From the NCBI GenBank assembly GCA_017520105.1, contig JAFWRL010000255.1:1-7695 (forward strand): 7,695 bases of DNA, in the 5' to 3' direction. Position numbers and translations under genes: made by a program. This document shows, piece by piece, positions 2,168-7,695 of this stretch. This stretch comes from Fibrobacter sp. GTDB taxonomy: Bacteria > Fibrobacterota > Fibrobacteria > Fibrobacterales > Fibrobacteraceae. Below the pieces are notes generated by a model, which was not told the DNA's origin, did no database searches, and saw only the letters and a list, made by a program, of their open reading frames with translations. Positions within the stretch are counted from its first letter, which is position 1. Each line of letters opens with the position of its first letter.

Positions 2168-2938
2168 ATGAAACCAATATTGTTGTGCGTCGTGTTCCTT
2201 GCGGCCTCGGCGTGGTCCAGCGTAAACCTTATTTGGACGGAGTTCCAGTTCGAAAAAGGGTATTTGGAAGTAGATACCGCAAAGATTTGCAATGTGGATA
2301 CGACCTATATCAACTGCTCGCAGGACAGAGGTCTTGCGTACTATTCGACGATGGATACCACATTCGCAGTTCTTTTCAATCCGTTAATCACAAGGGTGCA
2401 GCTTTTTAAATCCTTGAATGTGGACGAACAAAGACAAGCCGCTGCGGGATATGATTTCAAGATGACGGCTGTTTTGCGTTATGAGTTTATGAAGTGGCAG
2501 GAGTGGGGTATTATCAAGATGACAAAGGATAGTGCCCAACGTTTGCTGGATCGTATCTTGCCGGAATCGAGAAATGTTCAGGGCCGTAAAATTATCCATA
2601 AGAAGGTTTGCGACGAGGAAATGATCTCGGCATGCCAAGGAGAGATCCTTTGGGGTGGGAGTGGTTCACCAGGGCTTACTGAAGATGATGTTTCGCGCCT
2701 TCCTCAAAAAAAGGTTTTGCTGAATGCGGAATCCGAAAATCCGGGTACGACTTCTTTGCCTCATAAATTTGGCAAGGAAATTCAGGGCGTGGGAAACGTT
2801 CAGCCGGGAACCGGCTACAAAGCTTTTGACATGAATGGAGTTTATCTGTTCCGCGGCTCTTGGGGCGGTAGCTTTACGGCTCAGGGAAAACCGGTCATCC
2901 TCAAGTTCGATAACGGAAGAAACGCCGTTTTCCGCTAG
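2168..2938 (+). CDS. Exported protein of unknown function with possible type IX-like C-terminal tail
   Basis: The 256-residue product has a Sec signal peptide (M-K-P then L-L-C-V-V-F-L-A-A-S-A, likely cleaved after Ala15 in A-S-A). The body is not recognised. It has Cys41, Cys50, Cys148 and Cys156, which could form disulfides outside the cytoplasm. The last ~40 residues (Y-K-A-F-D-M-N-G-V-Y-L-F-R-G ... G-K-P-V-I-L-K-F-D-N-G) resemble the 'F-D-M-x-G ... P-G-x-Y-x-V' pattern of C-terminal sorting domains of type IX secretion substrates, also found on Fibrobacter secreted proteins. This is a pattern match by eye. The start is supported by TGGAGG (2156-2161), six bases before the ATG. The gene lies just downstream of the insertion element and converges on the radical SAM gene, 82 bases away. 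Confidence 0.75.
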   Translation: MKPILLCVVFLAASAWSSVNLIWTEFQFEKGYLEVDTAKICNVDTTYINCSQDRGLAYYSTMDTTFAVLFNPLITRVQLFKSLNVDEQRQAAAGYDFKMTAVLRYEFMKWQEWGIIKMTKDSAQRLLDRILPESRNVQGRKIIHKKVCDEEMISACQGEILWGGSGSPGLTEDDVSRLPQKKVLLNAESENPGTTSLPHKFGKEIQGVGNVQPGTGYKAFDMNGVYLFRGSWGGSFTAQGKPVILKFDNGRNAVFR

Positions 2939-3020
2939 TATCCCCAATGCTTGCGGATGAACGAAATCATAAGTTTTCTCCTTCTTTTGGATGTCTGGCT
3001 TGACCGAGGTGCGGAGTTTT

Positions 3021-4097
3021 TTATGCTCCTGCATCCTCGAGACGCTGCACATGACAGTAGGCCAATTCCTTGGTTTTCTCATCTCTGAGGTGCAGGCTGG
3101 AGCCTTCGCAGTAGCGCCAGTATTTGCACTTTTTGCAGTCGCCAATTTTGGCCCAGTTGCGGTCGCGCATCACTTGGTAGCGGTTCTGCCACACGTCCCA
3201 CAGGTCGTCTTTGTAGATGTTCCCTTGGATGTAGTCGCCACGGAGGCTCGGGCATGCCGAGATGCTGCCGTCGCAAAGCACAGAAGACACGTTTACGCCG
3301 GCACGGCAGAAGAACGGGTAGTTGCGGGCGTCCTTCTCGTAACTGCCGAGGAATCCTTCGCAGCCGTAGTTCACGTTGATGACATTCAGCGATTTTACTT
3401 CGCGGATGAAGTCGAACACTTGGCGGAATTCCTGGTTCGTGAGCTGGAACAGCGGATTGTCCTTGGCGCGACCCTTCGGGAACACCGTCGCGATGCGCCA
3501 ACGCTTTACGCCAATTTTCAAAAGCAGGTCGAGAATTTTCGGGAGTTCCTTCAGGTTTTCGCGGTTCACGCACGTCATCACGTCGAAGGTGAGGCCTTGC
3601 GTGTGGGCGGCCATGTCGATGGCTCGCAGCGCTCGCTCAAAGCTATGCGGGTCGCCACGGAAATGGTTGTGATTCGCTTCGAGACCGTCGAGGCTGATGG
3701 TGAGCGAGCGCAGCCCTGCGTTCAAAAGGCGGGTGTAGCGTTCCGGCGTCATCGCAAGACCGTTCGTGACCATGCCCCAGGGGTAGCCGCGTTTCTTGAT
3801 TTCTTGACCGCATTCTTCGAGGTCGGGGCGCATCAAAGGTTCGCCGCCCGTAATCACCACGATAAAGTGCTTCGGGTCGATGTGCGGGGCGAGCTTGTCC
3901 AGCACGTTCATAAAATCTTCGCGGGGCATGTCCGGGATGGCGTCCTTCACGCAGTCACTACCGCAGTGCAGGCAGTGCAAATTGCAGCGCAGCGTACATT
4001 CCCAGAAAAAATACGTGAGCGGGTGCGCCTTGATTTCGTTGTGACGGTAAAGGCGATAAGCTTCGAGAGCGAGTTTCTTTTTAAGAGAGAGTTGCAT
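3021..4097 (-). CDS. Radical SAM/SPASM enzyme, rSAM/lipoprotein-system family
   Basis: The 358-residue product is a radical S-adenosylmethionine enzyme. The cluster-binding motif CX3CX2C is Cys38-N-L-H-Cys42-L-H-Cys45, within F-W-E-C-T-L-R-C. The SAM-binding G-G-E-P is at 84-87, and T-I-S-L-D-G (133-138) fits the core barrel. The C-terminal part (about 246-348) is SPASM-like with Cys264, Cys275, Cys282, Cys321-x2-Cys324-x5-Cys330 and Cys348, so auxiliary iron-sulfur clusters are likely. SPASM enzymes commonly modify peptides or proteins. From memory, the stretches F-W-E-C-T-L-R-C-N-L, Y-P-W-G-M-V-T-N-G-L and Q-G-N-I-Y-K-D-D closely match the family I know as TIGR04133, named for its lipoprotein neighbours. 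Here it follows a run of paralogous lipoprotein genes on the same strand, 45 bases after the nearest one. No Shine-Dalgarno is seen. The substrate and reaction are unknown. Confidence 0.92.
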   Translation of the reverse strand: MQLSLKKKLALEAYRLYRHNEIKAHPLTYFFWECTLRCNLHCLHCGSDCVKDAIPDMPREDFMNVLDKLAPHIDPKHFIVVITGGEPLMRPDLEECGQEIKKRGYPWGMVTNGLAMTPERYTRLLNAGLRSLTISLDGLEANHNHFRGDPHSFERALRAIDMAAHTQGLTFDVMTCVNRENLKELPKILDLLLKIGVKRWRIATVFPKGRAKDNPLFQLTNQEFRQVFDFIREVKSLNVINVNYGCEGFLGSYEKDARNYPFFCRAGVNVSSVLCDGSISACPSLRGDYIQGNIYKDDLWDVWQNRYQVMRDRNWAKIGDCKKCKYWRYCEGSSLHLRDEKTKELAYCHVQRLEDAGA

Positions 4098-4136
4098 AGG
4101 CTTTTAGGGGTTAGGATTTAAGATCTAGTGGTTAGG
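4094..4136 (-). repeat. Degenerate 7-bp repeats upstream of the radical SAM gene
   Basis: On the + strand the spacer reads as units GCATAGG (4094-4100, overlapping the start codon), an 8-base CTTTTAGG (4101-4108), GGTTAGG (4109-4115), two weaker units, and GGTTAGG (4130-4136). The coding strand therefore carries CCTAA-type units immediately before ATG. It belongs to the same repeat class as the other spacers of this cluster, but with one 8-base slip and two degenerate units. Confidence 0.65.
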
Positions 4137-4142
4137 GAAATT

Positions 4143-4547
4143 TTAGTGGATACGTTCGCTTTCAACGTAGTATTTTGAGTTGAATTCGTCTTTGGTGTAT
4201 GAGATGGATTTGCCTTGATAATCCGTGCAAGAAAAAGAATCACTATAACCATAGTCTTCGCATATTGTTCCGTCTTTGCATTCGTAATAATCTACGGAAA
4301 TGTAATTTCTACCATTCTCGCGTGTGTCGTAAATTCTTGAATGACGTTTGCACGCTATTTGTTCATTGCTAGAACTTGACGGAAGAGGATTTACGCTGGA
4401 ACTGCTTTCGGGCATCGCGGGCATCGGGTTACATATATCAGGCGGGCATCCATAGAAATCCGGCCCTTCGACGGAAGATGTTTCATCGCAACTGGCCCAG
4501 AATAGGGCCGTTAATGCAAGTGCAAATTTTTTCCAGTGTTTGTACAT
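4143..4547 (-). CDS. Short Cys-rich lipoprotein (type A), putative partner or substrate of the radical SAM enzyme
   Basis: The 134-residue product starts M-Y-K-H-W-K-K, followed by a hydrophobic segment ending A-L-F-W-A-S-C, with the lipidated cysteine at 20. A short Ser/Pro linker region (about 40-60) contains two S-S-S-S runs. The C-terminal module (about 63-134) has Y-Y-E-C90, D-G, Cys96, Cys107, Q-G-K, Y-T-K-D-E-F (117-122) and K-Y-Y (125-127). Cys34, Cys39 and Cys66 lie before it. The protein ends E-S-E-R-I-H, almost the same as the partial lipoprotein at the right edge (K-S-E-R-I-H). It is the gene nearest the radical SAM gene (45-base spacer, same strand). No Shine-Dalgarno is visible before the ATG. 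I do not recognise the family beyond the paralogues here. Membrane anchoring is likely, and any modification by the neighbouring enzyme is inference. Confidence 0.85.
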   Translation of the reverse strand: MYKHWKKFALALTALFWASCDETSSVEGPDFYGCPPDICNPMPAMPESSSSVNPLPSSSSNEQIACKRHSRIYDTRENGRNYISVDYYECKDGTICEDYGYSDSFSCTDYQGKSISYTKDEFNSKYYVESERIH

Positions 4548-4603
4548 AATTAGGTGTTAGGTTTTAGGTAATAGGTTGTAGGGGAGTGGACCAATGACTA
4601 AAC
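4548..4603 (-). repeat. Eight contiguous 7-bp units filling an intergenic spacer
   Basis: The spacer between two lipoprotein genes divides into eight 7-base units. The first five (4548-4582) each end in TAGG, for example AATTAGG, TGTTAGG and TTTTAGG. The next is GGAGTGG. The last two (4590-4603) belong to a related GACTAA-type phase and reach the stop codon of the upstream gene. On the coding strand the units read CCTANNN and abut the ATG with no interruption. Confidence 0.8.
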
Positions 4604-5811
4604 TAATAACGTCTTTTCTCATAATATTTCTTTTCGAATTCCTCATGGGTATATTTGATTTCTTTGCCTTGTTTGTCGGTGCAATTCATATTGCTTTCAT
4701 TCATTATTCTCCAGCATGAAAGACCGTCATTGCAGTTGTAGTAGTCCGTACATTTTGAATCCACGCCGTATAAGGGGCACGAAACGGTATATTCACATGC
4801 GATTTGTTCGATTTTTGAATATTCTATGCATTTGTCGATTAGTTTTTTTAACGATGCTTTGAGTGTGTCTAGCTCCTGTTGATAACGCGGATTCACGATT
4901 GTTTCGCCGTCGCAGGTTTGCTTCTTAGCAATAACATCTGTGGATGGAGATATATAAGTGCGTTCTACGCGGTCAAGGCAAATAGAGTCTTTTTCTGCAA
5001 GGTTTGTTCCGAGTTCTTTCTTGGCGATGTCTAAAAGTTCTTTTTTGTCATTTTCCCACGCTTTATCGAAATCGGTTGGTGTGGTAAAATCGCTTTTTTG
5101 ACAAAGCGGAGATGGAGGCGTGGCGCTGCTGCTGGATTCCGGCTCCGAACTTGAACTGGATTGATATTTTTCAGGAAATTGTGCTCTGTGTTCTTCTTTT
5201 GTATAGAGAATATGATTGTCGTAATCGGTTACTAATGTACTGGCTTCATAGCTTTTGTTGTTTGAACAATTATATACCAACGTTCCAGGATCTACATGTG
5301 TACAATGGGATTGGGGTGTTCTATACGCTTTATAGTCTGCATCAAGCCATTCTTTTAGATTTGCATTTATTTTTGCTTCGAGGGAATCGAGCTGGTCCAA
5401 TGTCAGAGTCTGGTTTTCTTCAAGTGCTTTTTTGTACTCGTCGATTTTTCTTTGAATAGCTTCTTTGTTGCTTTTGGCATCTTCTTCGTCGAGGCATTTG
5501 CCACCGTTGATGAAATCTTGAATGCATGTGATGCTTGGGTCGCTTGCAAGCCTGTAGGCGTTAAGATTTAAACTACTGGAACTGGACTCCGCAGCGCTGC
5601 TGGAACTTGGGACTTTAGCTTCGGAAGAACTGCTTTCGGCTGCGTTTTCGCTAGAGCTTTTATTGCTGTCGGAACTTATGCCGGGGTCAACAGCGGATGA
5701 CGTGTCCTGACCGATGGTCGGGAACGTATTTTCGTTTTCGCTCGTGCAGCTTGCCCAAAAGAGGGCTGTGGTCGTGAGCAAAAGTTTTTTCCAGTGCTTG
5801 CGAATGTTCAT
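4603..5811 (-). CDS. Long modular lipoprotein (type B) with fused type A C-terminal module
   Basis: The 402-residue product has the signal M-N-I-R-K-H-W-K-K ... A-L-F-W-A-S-C (Cys22). Residues about 38-80 are a Ser-rich linker. Domain I (about 86-216) has Cys96, Cys106, Cys170 and Cys182, with a K/E-rich, probably helical stretch at 114-152 and the motif Y-T-K-E-E (203-207). A second Ser linker lies at 218-231. Domain II (about 236-332) has Cys237, Cys278, Cys300 and Cys328 and the block T-C-D-G-E-T-I-V-N-P-R-Y. Domain III (about 333-402) is the same Cys module as in the short lipoproteins: Y-Y-N-C360, Cys366, Cys377, Q-G-K-E-I-K-Y-T, E-E-F and K-Y-Y. The paralogue at 6436-7410 lacks domain III, so this looks like a B plus A fusion. 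No Shine-Dalgarno is seen. The function is unknown, and lipid anchoring with a flexible stalk is likely. Confidence 0.87.
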   Translation of the reverse strand: MNIRKHWKKLLLTTTALFWASCTSENENTFPTIGQDTSSAVDPGISSDSNKSSSENAAESSSSEAKVPSSSSAAESSSSSLNLNAYRLASDPSITCIQDFINGGKCLDEEDAKSNKEAIQRKIDEYKKALEENQTLTLDQLDSLEAKINANLKEWLDADYKAYRTPQSHCTHVDPGTLVYNCSNNKSYEASTLVTDYDNHILYTKEEHRAQFPEKYQSSSSSEPESSSSATPPSPLCQKSDFTTPTDFDKAWENDKKELLDIAKKELGTNLAEKDSICLDRVERTYISPSTDVIAKKQTCDGETIVNPRYQQELDTLKASLKKLIDKCIEYSKIEQIACEYTVSCPLYGVDSKCTDYYNCNDGLSCWRIMNESNMNCTDKQGKEIKYTHEEFEKKYYEKRRY

Positions 5812-5888
5812 TTTTAGGTGCTAGGTTATAGGTTTTAGGTGGTAGGGGCGTGGTTAGTGGTTGGTGGTTAGTGATTAGTGGTTAGGAT
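5812..5888 (-). repeat. Eleven contiguous 7-bp units abutting a start codon
   Basis: Starting exactly next to the ATG (5809-5811), the + strand divides into 7-base units without a break. Five are of NNNTAGG type (5812-5846, such as TTTTAGG and TGCTAGG), then GGCGTGG, then four of TTAGTGG type (5854-5881, such as TTAGTGG and TTGGTGG), then TTAGGAT. On the coding strand these read as CCTANNN and CTAACCA-like units. It is the longest such array in the window. Confidence 0.85.
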
Positions 5889-5909
5889 TGCAAATAGAAC
5901 GTTCTTTTT

Positions 5910-5983
5910 ACATTCCTGTTTACTGCATACTGTTTACTAACCACTCATAACATTCCTGTTTACGGCCCAAGGGCCTAACCACT
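5910..5983. repeat. Direct repeat pair and further 7-bp units in a long spacer
   Basis: The 14-base ACATTCCTGTTTAC occurs at 5910-5923 and 5950-5963, and CTAACCACT follows at 5937-5945 and 5975-5983, giving a duplicated block of about 40 bases. Between them the sequence also falls into 7-base units ending in AC (TGTTTAC, TGCATAC, TGTTTAC, TAACCAC, TCATAAC at 5917-5951). A small palindrome GGCCCAAGGGCC lies at 5964-5975. CTAACCACT is the complement of the TTAGTGG units at 5854-5881. No gene is seen here. Confidence 0.7.
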
Positions 5984-5985
5984 TT

Positions 5986-6013
5986 CATTGACTATTGACT
6001 AATAACTAAACTA
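5986..6013 (-). repeat. Four 7-bp units running into a stop codon
   Basis: The + strand units CATTGAC, TATTGAC, TAATAAC and TAAACTA occupy 5986-6013. The last contains the complement of the TAG stop codon of the 118-residue lipoprotein gene. The same final unit, TAAACTA at 4599-4605, overlaps the stop of the 402-residue lipoprotein gene. Confidence 0.7.
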
Positions 6014-6367
6014 GTAACGGTTTTCCTCATAATAATTCTTTTCGAATTCCTTTTGGGTGTATTTGATTTCTTTGCCTTGTTTGTCGGAGCAATTTAGAGT
6101 GGTTTCATCTTCATAAGCCCAACAAGAAACACCGTCTTCACAATGATAATATTTTTGGCATTTTGGAGCTGGTTGGAAGGTGCAGTTTTGACCGTTGTCG
6201 TCCGGATGAACGCCGTCTTCACAATAATAACCAGAAACTCCGTATTCGGGACACCCTATAGTAAGTGTGCATGCTGTAGGCTCGTTGCTAGAAGACGAAT
6301 TGTCATTGCAACCACCCCAGAAAAAGGCGGTCAGGGCGAGTGCTATTTTTTTCCAGTGCTTGTACAT
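6011..6367 (-). CDS. Short Cys-rich lipoprotein (type A)
   Basis: The 118-residue product begins M-Y-K-H-W-K-K and has a hydrophobic stretch ending A-F-F-W-G-G-C (Cys20), a lipoprotein signal almost the same as that of 4143-4547. A short N-D-N-S-S-S-S linker follows. The mature part is dense in cysteine (33, 39, 49, 62, 70, 76, 82, 93), so disulfides outside the cytoplasm are plausible. Residues about 70-118 form the shared module: Y-Y-H-C76, E-D-G, Cys82, Cys93, D-K-Q-G-K-E-I-K-Y-T, K-E-F and N-Y-Y. An extra Y-Y-C-E-D-G at 47-52 looks like a second, shorter copy of its beginning. The module is closest to the end of the 402-residue protein downstream. No Shine-Dalgarno is visible. Function is unknown. 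Confidence 0.85.
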   Translation of the reverse strand: MYKHWKKIALALTAFFWGGCNDNSSSSNEPTACTLTIGCPEYGVSGYYCEDGVHPDDNGQNCTFQPAPKCQKYYHCEDGVSCWAYEDETTLNCSDKQGKEIKYTQKEFEKNYYEENRY

Positions 6368-6395
6368 AATTAGGCTTTAGGTGGTAGGTAATAAT
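6368..6395 (-). repeat. Short array of 7-bp units abutting a start codon
   Basis: Units AATTAGG, CTTTAGG, TGGTAGG and a decayed TAATAAT follow the start codon complement (6365-6367) without a gap on the + strand. The remaining spacer to 6435 is AT-rich, and I see no further structure in it. Confidence 0.7.
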
Positions 6396-6435
6396 TAAAA
6401 TAATATTTTAGTTGTTGATGGCTAGGTTTTAAACG

Positions 6436-7410
6436 CTATTTCTCTGTTTCCTTTAGACAATTGTCAATATTCCTTTTTGCTATTTTTTCATTGTAATCTA
6501 ATATTTCCTGATAACGTGGGTTCACAATTGTTTCTCCGTCGCAGGTTTGCTTTAGAGCTAGATAACCAGTACAATTGCTTGGAAAATGCACTTGAAGTCT
6601 TTCTAGACAATTAGATTGGTTGTCTGAAAGAGAATCGCCTTTTTCTGTTTTGATGTTGTTAATAAGATAATCTATTTGTTTGATTAAAGAATCGGTAGCG
6701 TCGGTGCAACGGATAAAATCACTTTTTTGACAGAGTGGAGATGGTATTGCTGAGCTGCTTGATAAAGAACTTGAACTGGATTTGTTTTTTTCGGGAAATT
6801 TTTTTTCAAATTCTTCTTTAGTGTAAATGATTTTTTTGTCTCTTACATGGGTTTCAAGTGTGTATATTTCATTGTTGGAACAGTCGTAATAGGGAATTCT
6901 CTCATACTCCCAGCAATTGTCTTGATCGATGAAAAATGCTAGAGGTCCATACATCGTTTGAGGACCGAGATCATCTTCTAGCTCATATTCTTCTAATTCA
7001 TCTTCAAAATACTCTAATTCGCTTAAAGGTAAAGTTTTGTTGTTTTCTAAACTGTCTTTGAGTTCTTCAAGAGTTCTTTTGATTGGATAAAGGCATTTCC
7101 CATTGCGAAAATTGAGGGCGCACGCTACTGTGGTGTCGCCTGCAAGTTTGTAAGGTCTAGAAACGGTACTGCTGGAACTTGGGGCTTTGGCTTCAGATGA
7201 ACTGCTTGCGACCGCATCAGAAGAACTGCTTTCGACGGTGTTTTCGCTAGAGCTTTCTGTATTGCTGTTGGAACTTGCACTGGGGTCAACAGCGGATGAC
7301 GTGTCCTGAGCTATTGTCGGGAGCGCGCTGTCGTTTTCACTCGTACAGCTTGTCCAAAAGAGGGCTGTCGTCGTGAGCAAAAGTCTTTTCCAGTGCTTGC
7401 GGATGTTCAT
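6436..7410 (-). CDS. Long modular lipoprotein (type B), without the C-terminal Cys module
   Basis: The 324-residue product has the signal M-N-I-R-K-H-W-K-R ... A-L-F-W-T-S-C (Cys22) and a long Ser-rich linker (about 38-83). Domain I (about 86-208) has Cys97, Cys106, Cys166 and Cys177, an unusually acidic stretch (131-147, mostly Glu/Asp/Leu/Tyr) and the motif Y-Y-D-C ... Y-T-K-E-E-F-E-K-K-F (196-205). A second Ser linker lies at 211-220. Domain II (about 225-320) has Cys227, Cys235, Cys268, Cys280, Cys290 and Cys318 with T-C-D-G-E-T-I-V-N-P-R-Y. It is clearly a paralogue of 4603-5811 but stops where that protein continues into its Y-Y-x-C module. The signal and Ser-linker region is also very similar at the DNA level to that gene. 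No Shine-Dalgarno is seen before the ATG. Function is unknown. Confidence 0.86.
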   Translation of the reverse strand: MNIRKHWKRLLLTTTALFWTSCTSENDSALPTIAQDTSSAVDPSASSNSNTESSSENTVESSSSDAVASSSSEAKAPSSSSTVSRPYKLAGDTTVACALNFRNGKCLYPIKRTLEELKDSLENNKTLPLSELEYFEDELEEYELEDDLGPQTMYGPLAFFIDQDNCWEYERIPYYDCSNNEIYTLETHVRDKKIIYTKEEFEKKFPEKNKSSSSSLSSSSAIPSPLCQKSDFIRCTDATDSLIKQIDYLINNIKTEKGDSLSDNQSNCLERLQVHFPSNCTGYLALKQTCDGETIVNPRYQEILDYNEKIAKRNIDNCLKETEK

Positions 7411-7452
7411 AATTAAAGTCGGAAGTAGTCGGTAGGAAGTGGTTGGTGCTTA
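7411..7452 (-). repeat. Six 7-bp units abutting a start codon, divergent type
   Basis: From the start codon complement (7408-7410) the + strand divides into AATTAAA, then GTCGGAA, GTAGTCG, GTAGGAA, GTGGTTG and GTGCTTA. Five successive units begin with GT at a 7-base period. The sequence differs from the NNNTAGG units of the other spacers but the phase and position are the same. Confidence 0.6.
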
Positions 7453-7493
7453 GGTTTAAATTATATAAATAGAAGTTGAAAATGAATATTTTT

Positions 7494-7695
7494 TTAATGA
7501 ATGCGTTCACTTTTTACATAGTATTTTGATTTGAATTCGTCTTCGGTATAGATTGTCTTGTTATCTTGTTCGTCGCGACAGTCAAAAGTTTTCGTCTTAT
7601 CGTCGGTTTCCAGGAAGCAAACGACCTTGTCTTGGCAATAGTAGGTTTCTGCGCATGAGTAGGGCTTTGTGCATGAAGGGTCGTCGGGGCTCCAC
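7494..7695 (-). CDS. C-terminal part of a further type A Cys-rich lipoprotein, cut by the window edge
   Basis: An open frame of 66 codons plus a TAA stop (7494-7496) runs off the right edge, so its start and signal peptide are not visible. Reading toward the C-terminus it shows Y-Y-C-Q-D, a second Cys five residues on, D-C-R-D, I-Y-T-E-D-E-F-K-S-K-Y-Y and the ending V-K-S-E-R-I-H. This matches the module and the E-S-E-R-I-H ending of the lipoprotein at 4143-4547. The Cys-to-Cys spacing before D-C-R-D is 12 rather than the 10 residues in the paralogues. Its stop lies 83 bases upstream of the next lipoprotein start, so the lipoprotein run continues beyond this window. Confidence 0.8.
   Translation of the reverse strand, partial: WSPDDPSCTKPYSCAETYYCQDKVVCFLETDDKTKTFDCRDEQDNKTIYTEDEFKSKYYVKSERIH

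Follow-up and report, generated by a model that had tools for sequence, protein, structure and literature searches.

Radical SAM enzymes of the TIGR04133 family are paired with XYG-bearing lipoproteins in Fibrobacter: a proposed splicease system

The locus and its enzyme

The window analyzed here, the whole 7,695-nt stretch of Fibrobacter sp. contig JAFWRL010000255.1, contains a gene for a radical S-adenosylmethionine (SAM) enzyme with a SPASM domain, preceded by a run of lipoprotein genes. Which part of these proteins could the enzyme modify, and by what reaction? The original prediction named the lipoproteins as substrates and left the chemistry open. The family of this enzyme, TIGR04133, is paired with proteins that share an X-Tyr-Gly (XYG) motif, and this motif points to tyramine splicing. 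The genes and candidate sites are as follows (lengths in amino acids, aa).

3021..4097, minus strand: radical SAM/SPASM enzyme of family TIGR04133, 358 aa, proposed XYG splicease (NCBIfam, Pfam, Cys motif, AlphaFold2 fold)
4143..4547, minus strand: Ser-linker lipoprotein, 134 aa, with a KHWKK...FWASC signal, candidate substrate (open reading frame, lipobox Cys20)
4449..4454, minus strand: Tyr-Gly codons in F-Y-G-C-P (Tyr32) of the 134-aa protein, candidate splice site (motif enrichment)
4248..4253, minus strand: Tyr-Gly codons in D-Y-G-Y (Tyr99) of the 134-aa protein, atypical context, uncertain site
4603..5811, minus strand: Ser-linker lipoprotein, 402 aa, candidate substrate (open reading frame, lipobox Cys22)
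4765..4770, minus strand: Tyr-Gly codons in L-Y-G-V (Tyr348) of the 402-aa protein, candidate splice site
6011..6367, minus strand: lipoprotein, 118 aa, candidate substrate (open reading frame, lipobox Cys20)
6239..6244, minus strand: Tyr-Gly codons in E-Y-G-V (Tyr42) of the 118-aa protein, candidate splice site
6436..7410, minus strand: Ser-linker lipoprotein, 324 aa, without the C-terminal Cys module, candidate substrate (open reading frame, lipobox Cys22)
6946..6951, minus strand: Tyr-Gly codons in M-Y-G-P (Tyr154) of the 324-aa protein, candidate splice site
7494..7694, minus strand: C-terminal piece of a fifth, homologous lipoprotein-type protein whose start lies beyond the window edge (open-ended reading frame)

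The enzyme is a full member of TIGR04133, as had been suggested from the letters alone: it scores 623.7 bits against the NCBIfam cut-off of 425 and covers positions 1–350 of the 350-position profile, and the Pfam domains Radical_SAM (PF04055) and SPASM (PF13186) are both above their cut-offs. Its CX3CX2C motif falls at Cys38/42/45 and its C-terminal part is Cys-rich. NCBIfam labels the family a "hypothetical equivalog". In the AlphaFold2 model (pLDDT 93.8) the closest Protein Data Bank (PDB) folds by E-value are SkfB and SuiB, with TM scores of about 0.67, and BlsE and PqqE stand lower among the matches; a PDB search by sequence gave eight radical SAM enzymes, all of other functions. A literature search whose coverage did not extend to Scott et al. 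2022 returned no mention of TIGR04133 or TIGR04134 and no assigned reaction. Loci with an enzyme more than 90% identical to that of the window include records of Fibrobacter succinogenes, two of which (L047 and L103) represent the same place.

All five lipoprotein-type genes lie on the strand of the enzyme gene and upstream of it; the nearest ends 45 nt away, with no intervening gene by inspection, and the coordinates and the Cys residues agree with the original prediction. The spacers calculated across the run are 45, 55, 199, 68 and 83 nt, so that the predicted short spacing holds for all except the 199-nt one. Judged by eye, four of the five proteins carry a Cys module at the C-terminus, and the 324-aa protein has a related Cys stretch in its middle instead. 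The module is thus mostly shared within the window, as predicted, but it is not the feature common to partners at large. None of the five proteins matches a Pfam or NCBIfam family above its cut-off, and no YG occurs in the visible 66 residues of the fifth piece, whose N-terminus is outside the window. The spacers between the lipoprotein genes carry degenerate 7-base repeats of the TTAGGTG, GTGGTTA and ATTGACT types (4550–4582, 5822–5885, 5916–5938, 5987–6001). No Shine-Dalgarno-like sequence was seen by eye ahead of the lipoprotein start codons of the window.

Conserved pairing of the enzyme with XYG proteins

Within the genus Fibrobacter, 62 of 67 genomes have a TIGR04133 match over the cut-off; the other five (G065, G077, G144, G145, G147) have a far weaker match or none. 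We read the neighbourhoods of the window and 40 further loci, and then of 18 more, which together hold 65 TIGR04133-type genes in 59 Fibrobacterota loci. In Fibrobacter the enzyme gene mostly lies downstream of one to several lipoprotein genes, frequently with Ser runs, so the predicted recurrence of the pairing through the genus is borne out. In more distant Fibrobacterota the neighbours are of other kinds.

A frame containing YG[VTPCSIMAG] and ending at most 250 nt upstream was found for 61 of the 65 enzyme genes, enzyme frames themselves being excluded, compared with 8 of 65 for the reversed motif; the arrangement is therefore not due to chance. For the remaining four enzyme genes, XYG lipoproteins are encoded at other positions of the locus: two enzyme genes of L037 lie within a run of five same-strand YG lipoproteins, and in L063 and L217 a YG protein is encoded downstream of the enzyme. 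Eight of the 61 upstream frames, all from distant Fibrobacterota (e.g., L220–L222), lack a signal-plus-lipobox pattern. Judged by the simple rules with which lipoboxes and genes were called, lipid anchoring of the partner is usual and not essential.

The XYG motif

Side-by-side reading of the partners revealed a common motif, X-Tyr-Gly-(V/T/P/C/I)-(P), that is often repeated. Lipoproteins of Fibrobacter, both enzyme-associated and control, were de-duplicated by residues 26–60. YG is present in 87 of the 89 associated lipoproteins (shuffle mean, 38.5 proteins), which together contain 247 YG and 27 GY dipeptides; 200 shuffles gave 57.6 YG on average and at most 82. Mostly one to seven XYG sites occur per Fibrobacter protein. 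In the initial control set plain YG was somewhat more frequent than by chance, at 43 of 65 proteins (expected 31.2). Eleven proteins of this set had a partner-type signal; after their removal the count was 32 of 54 (expected 26.8).

To cover other taxa, we scanned genome records and obtained 80 loci, including 66 without a Fibrobacter label; these relatives were taken by tblastn, not by TIGR04133 score. The upstream neighbour was chosen by position alone, within 150 nt. Seven of the 66 loci were not evaluable, four without an upstream frame in that distance and three cut by contig ends; YG is found in the upstream frame of L084 and L104 (the latter frame cut) and in the downstream frame of L129 and L154, and L108, L139 and L158 were left without a YG call. 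Among the 59 evaluable neighbours, 57 contain YG (shuffle mean 26.2, maximum 38 in 1000 shuffles) and 13 contain GY. In the loci of the two misses, L116 and L147, YG proteins are encoded at other positions. The first YG of the 57 proteins is preceded by Glu in 30 and by Met in 16, and in 49 of them Pro stands at the second position beyond this YG.

The longer form YGxP is more specific. It occurs in 54 of the 59 non-Fibrobacter partners (expected 1.5) and in 52 of the 89 Fibrobacter partners (expected 2.7), compared with 4 of the 54 control lipoproteins (expected 1.9), and those four seem to be further members by signal or place. The other called genes of the non-Fibrobacter loci, a set that includes further partner copies, have it in 27 of 441 cases (expected 13.7). 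Among the other lipobox genes of these loci it is present in 11 of 40; most of the eight that we inspected read as second partner copies or as the true partner missed by the 150-nt rule.

Both residues of the dipeptide are constrained. With the third place of [LKEM]-Y-?-x-P left open, Gly fills it in 77 of 77 Fibrobacter cases and in 61 of 63 from other taxa; with the second place of [LKEM]-?-G-x-P left open, Tyr fills it in 77 of 82 and in 61 of at least 71, respectively. Tyr and Gly are thus each near-invariant in context, and X and the following residue vary. The scaffolds that carry the motif are unlike one another: Ser-linker and Cys proteins, peptides of 66–91 aa, the proteins without a lipobox mentioned above, and one tested partner with weak matches to carboxypeptidase-regulatory-like domains. 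A Treponema lipoprotein partner reads CYGMP. Across these differing scaffolds XYG appears as the constant feature.

The lipoproteins of the window are therefore very probably substrates of the enzyme, as originally predicted, and several of them apparently share a single enzyme. Homologues without lipoproteins of the window type, which the original prediction had named as evidence against the pairing, do occur outside Fibrobacter; since these homologues have other XYG partners, the pairing hypothesis survives.

The signal peptide as a candidate leader

The signal peptides of Fibrobacter partners follow the pattern KHWKK-x8-FWxxC, with Lys in 85%, His in 83%, Trp in 76%, Lys in 78% and Lys in 79% of the sequences, and Phe in 86% and Trp in 94% before the lipobox. 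Within a locus the signals are 52% identical and the mature parts 28%; control lipoproteins show 13% signal identity. For pairs with mature parts less than 25% identical, the signals are still 44% identical. Codons at identical signal residues agree in 49% of cases versus 38% expected; this is near expectation, so the conservation is mostly not due to recent copying.

A DNA pattern for the KHW...FW signal was found in 61 of 80 genus genomes, and its backwards control in none. Of the five genus genomes whose enzyme matches stay below the cut-off or are absent, G145 alone has the pattern. Co-occurrence of signal and enzyme, proposed in the original prediction, thus holds in general, but not for the exact pattern in every genome (see below). 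A conserved leader beside a variable core, as in precursors of ribosomally synthesized and post-translationally modified peptides (RiPPs), is supported for Fibrobacter only, because signals outside the genus hardly rise above control.

Comparison with PlpX spliceases

We take PlpX to be a member of TIGR04103 (nif11-class maturase 3), an assignment that agrees with how the plp cluster has been described in the literature. In a Nostoc plasmid, a TIGR04103 enzyme (853.1 bits) adjoins a Nif11 precursor that ends in GGRGSIALYGLPPELF, with the shape X-Y-G-x-P, and also a 71-aa protein. Its motif, LYGLPP, may be compared with KYGVP, EYGTP and LYGPP of the TIGR04133 partners. According to the excerpts available of the published work, the recognition rule of PlpX is XYG, its natural sites are MYG and LYG, and the leader is dispensable (PMC10533398). 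The same source describes tags internal to FtsZ, of which the two accepted contain PIRPGYGLPI, with an engineered GYG, and others, including LYG, were not accepted. Precursors can have several sites, tyramine is lost (PMC10533398, PMC11002830, PMC10373908), the partner PlpY is a truncated RiPP recognition element (RRE) (PMC11002830), and the resulting ketoamide residues are reported to inhibit proteases (PMC10373908).

The near-invariance of Tyr and Gly with a free X fits this rule. Like PlpXY, the window system has a radical SAM/SPASM enzyme adjoining X-Y-G substrates, with several sites per substrate possible. Unlike in PlpXY, the leader would be a lipoprotein signal peptide and not a Nif11 or NHLP leader, and the product would be a whole anchored protein; the enzyme, with 141.7 of 725 bits, falls far short of the cut-off of TIGR04103. 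Among the literature matches listed, none connects spliceases with lipoproteins, Scott et al. 2022 and Richter 2024 being outside the coverage.

A second XYG system in Fibrobacter

In 10 of 80 Fibrobacter genomes (L168–L170, L224–L233), a different radical SAM enzyme adjoins a protein with 11–21 YG, mainly as KYGYP, and does so in 10 of 10 loci. The one enzyme of this system that was scored has TIGR04103 as its best family, at 226 of 725 bits and thus below the cut-off. Like the window lipoproteins, the KYGYP-repeat protein bears XYG and adjoins a radical SAM/SPASM enzyme in the same genus; unlike them, it has no lipoprotein signal and many more sites. It is an apparent multi-site splicease substrate. 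The presence of two distinct enzyme systems for XYG within a single genus adds to the plausibility of splicing. A likeness between the N-terminus of the repeat protein and chagasin-type inhibitors was considered and found no Pfam support; the single high-scoring Pfam row of the protein, OTU1_UBXL (0 stretches), resembles an artefact of the repeats.

Proposed mechanism and alternative explanations

We consider it rather probable that TIGR04133 enzymes splice the XYG sites of pre-lipoproteins, with the signal peptide as leader. Radical SAM chemistry proceeds in the reducing cytoplasm; modification would therefore precede export, which makes the signal peptide a natural handle. The enzyme would recognize its substrate in the cytoplasm through the signal peptide, whose conserved form in Fibrobacter is KHWKK-x8-FWxxC and which would also act as leader, and would remove most of the tyrosine from the XYG backbone by tyramine splicing, leaving a reactive ketoamide. 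The spliced protein would then be exported, cleaved by signal peptidase II and lipidated, and its ketoamides, mostly one to seven per protein in Fibrobacter, would be displayed on the cell envelope. They probably serve to capture nucleophiles in a reversible, covalent manner. Inhibition of Ser or Cys proteases near the cell is the simplest guess, because protease inhibition has been reported for residues of this type; as a speculation, this use is the weakest step of the scheme. We also speculate that YGC and YGPPC sites with a nearby Cys could form internal hemithioketals. For the complete picture, in which a signal peptide serves as RiPP leader with no RRE partner, tyramine is lost at one to seven XYG sites and the surface becomes coated with ketoamides, we regard the case as evenly balanced.

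If splicing occurs, TIGR04133 gains a concrete and cheaply testable reaction, a loss of 135 Da (−135 Da) at a named Tyr of a named small protein. This would also explain the role of an enzyme family that is frequent in rumen Fibrobacter and that many gut Bacteroidota possess. Backbone splicing would then be a routine modification of surface proteins, beyond small peptide systems, in Fibrobacter and in the gut genera met here (Parabacteroides, Bacteroides, Phocaeicola). The consequences would reach proteomics, where standard searches miss peptides of this kind, as well as the protease biology of gut and rumen and tools for protein labelling.

Several observations weigh against this proposal, which draws on sequence and fold comparison. 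Two of the 89 Fibrobacter partners, of 107 aa (L037) and 274 aa (L044), have no YG, and the gene of the former immediately precedes an enzyme gene. Nine of the 62 enzyme-bearing genus genomes lack the exact KHW...FW pattern; all nine have YG partners with variant signals. Outside Fibrobacter the signal amounts to 32.3 bits (43 partners) compared with 30.6 bits in a small control of 19 other lipoproteins. Eight Fibrobacter genomes (L159–L166) hold a TIGR04133-like group that scores about 270 bits, short of the cut-off, and has no lipoprotein next to it; the same-strand frame after the enzyme (259–357 aa) contains one or two YG. The 50 best PDB fold matches to the window enzyme include no named splicease. 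Although PlpX works with PlpY, no PlpY-like RRE gene was seen beside the window enzyme by inspection, without an RRE-profile search, and Pfam found no RRE domain in the enzyme itself; the same-strand frames that follow it, 2384–2638 and 2666–3145, lie opposite a 256-aa gene (2168–2938). A specific kinship with PlpX is not established, since the runner-up profile TIGR04103 (141.7 bits) is barely ahead of TIGR04053 (139.9) and AhbD (138.1). In a tree with MftC and PqqE, the grouping of TIGR04133 with TIGR04103 and TIGR03913 is unsupported (49/17). When the long-branched MftC and PqqE are left out, the three families form one side of a 100/99 branch, with relatives of NirJ, TIGR04053 and TIGR04347 on the other side, in a sample of few families that does not contain PlpX itself. 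With these two results a clear sister relation of TIGR04133 and TIGR04103 is not upheld, and the XYG function could also be shared with PlpX by convergence.

Association and motif data fix the site and not the chemistry. Another radical reaction at XYG without splicing, such as epimerization at X or Tyr, a C–C or C–O cross-link of the Tyr ring, or loss of the Tyr side chain, would agree with them, and the nearest solved folds, SkfB and SuiB and, at lower rank, BlsE and PqqE, belong to other peptide-modifying SPASM enzymes. However, an internal XYG rule is not known to us from any other radical SAM family, and the combination of a strict Tyr, a following Gly and a free X is the splicing rule given in the available parts of the published reports (PMC10533398, PMC11002830, PMC10373908). 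We therefore judge a different XYG reaction unlikely. A target in the Cys module, with thioethers or other Cys-derived links and with YG merely part of the fold, would suit the four window lipoproteins that carry the module and the closeness of the fold to SkfB, which we take to be a thioether-forming enzyme. Many partners, however, have no Cys to modify. There is none after the lipobox, or after the motif where no lipobox was called, in 32 of the 57 non-Fibrobacter YG partners, which disfavours Cys-based thioether chemistry as a family rule; peptides of 78–80 aa (L130, L137, L089) have the YG motif and no module; and the 324-aa window protein lacks it at the C-terminus. We have rejected the module as target and consider this explanation very improbable.

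The action of the enzyme on its partners is proposed from sequence comparison, and the neighbourhood might reflect co-regulation, the true target being encoded elsewhere and YG being a structural motif of envelope proteins. At least nine XYG-bearing lipoproteins with the KHW signal do lie in stretches without a TIGR04133 gene (L182, L184, L186–L189, L194, L196, L197). Seven of their genomes are in the phylum table, and all seven carry an over-cut-off enzyme, by which these orphans may be served in trans. The motif, moreover, recurs beside the enzyme on Ser-linker and Cys proteins, carboxypeptidase-regulatory-like proteins and peptides of 66–91 residues, the 54 control lipoproteins are not above chance for it once apparent members are excepted, and the PlpX-like enzyme of the second system also adjoins its XYG-repeat proteins in every locus. 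We accordingly give a non-neighbour target very little credence.

Relation to the TIGR04134 and TIGR03913 systems

An adjacent TIGR04134 lipoprotein is, as we understand it, part of the description of TIGR04133 and not of its score. Like the TIGR04133/TIGR04134 systems, the window combines a full family member with envelope lipoproteins; unlike TIGR04134 proteins, these lipoproteins are mostly Ser- and Cys-rich and occur in runs, and their relatives can carry several XYG sites. The original prediction suggested that they differ from the usual TIGR04134 partner and may form a distinct branch. Indeed, none of the ten window proteins scored matches TIGR04134 up to an E-value of 1 (cut-off 39.8 bits). 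All four TIGR04134 members scored (L066, L067, L082, L181) carry XYG soon after the signal peptide, so that the link with true members lies in this motif and not in Ser linkers or Cys residues. Homology to TIGR04134 was rejected as the link, as the window has no match and the family exceeds its cut-off in only 5 of 150 Fibrobacterota genomes compared with 78 of 150 for TIGR04133. A protein search with one TIGR04134 member returned 12 relatives only.

The TIGR03913 systems, with GDL-motif (DUF1843) peptides, are tree neighbours of TIGR04103. YG near the N-terminus is found as RPYGPAM in one of two Azospirillum peptides and as IQPYGAG in one of three from Aureibacter:

L200 (Azospirillum), 1290–1502: DUF1843 peptide carrying PYG
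L180 (Aureibacter), 3699–3869: DUF1843 peptide carrying PYG

Unlike the window lipoproteins, DUF1843 peptides are short and have no evident signal peptide, and three of the five are without YG there; the two PYG sequences give a hint that TIGR03913, too, may follow the XYG rule. A radical SAM enzyme placed in the TIGR04103 group of the tree, from a Tropicibacter plasmid (L206), lies beside a trypsin-like peptidase and an M23 metallopeptidase.

Other features of the window

An IS200/IS605-type transposase gene (1480–1923) lies within 1350–2050, with inverted repeats of the GGTGGTTC type on either side, as seen by eye. On one side of it lies a carboxypeptidase-regulatory-like lipoprotein, on the other a hypothetical secreted protein (2168–2938).

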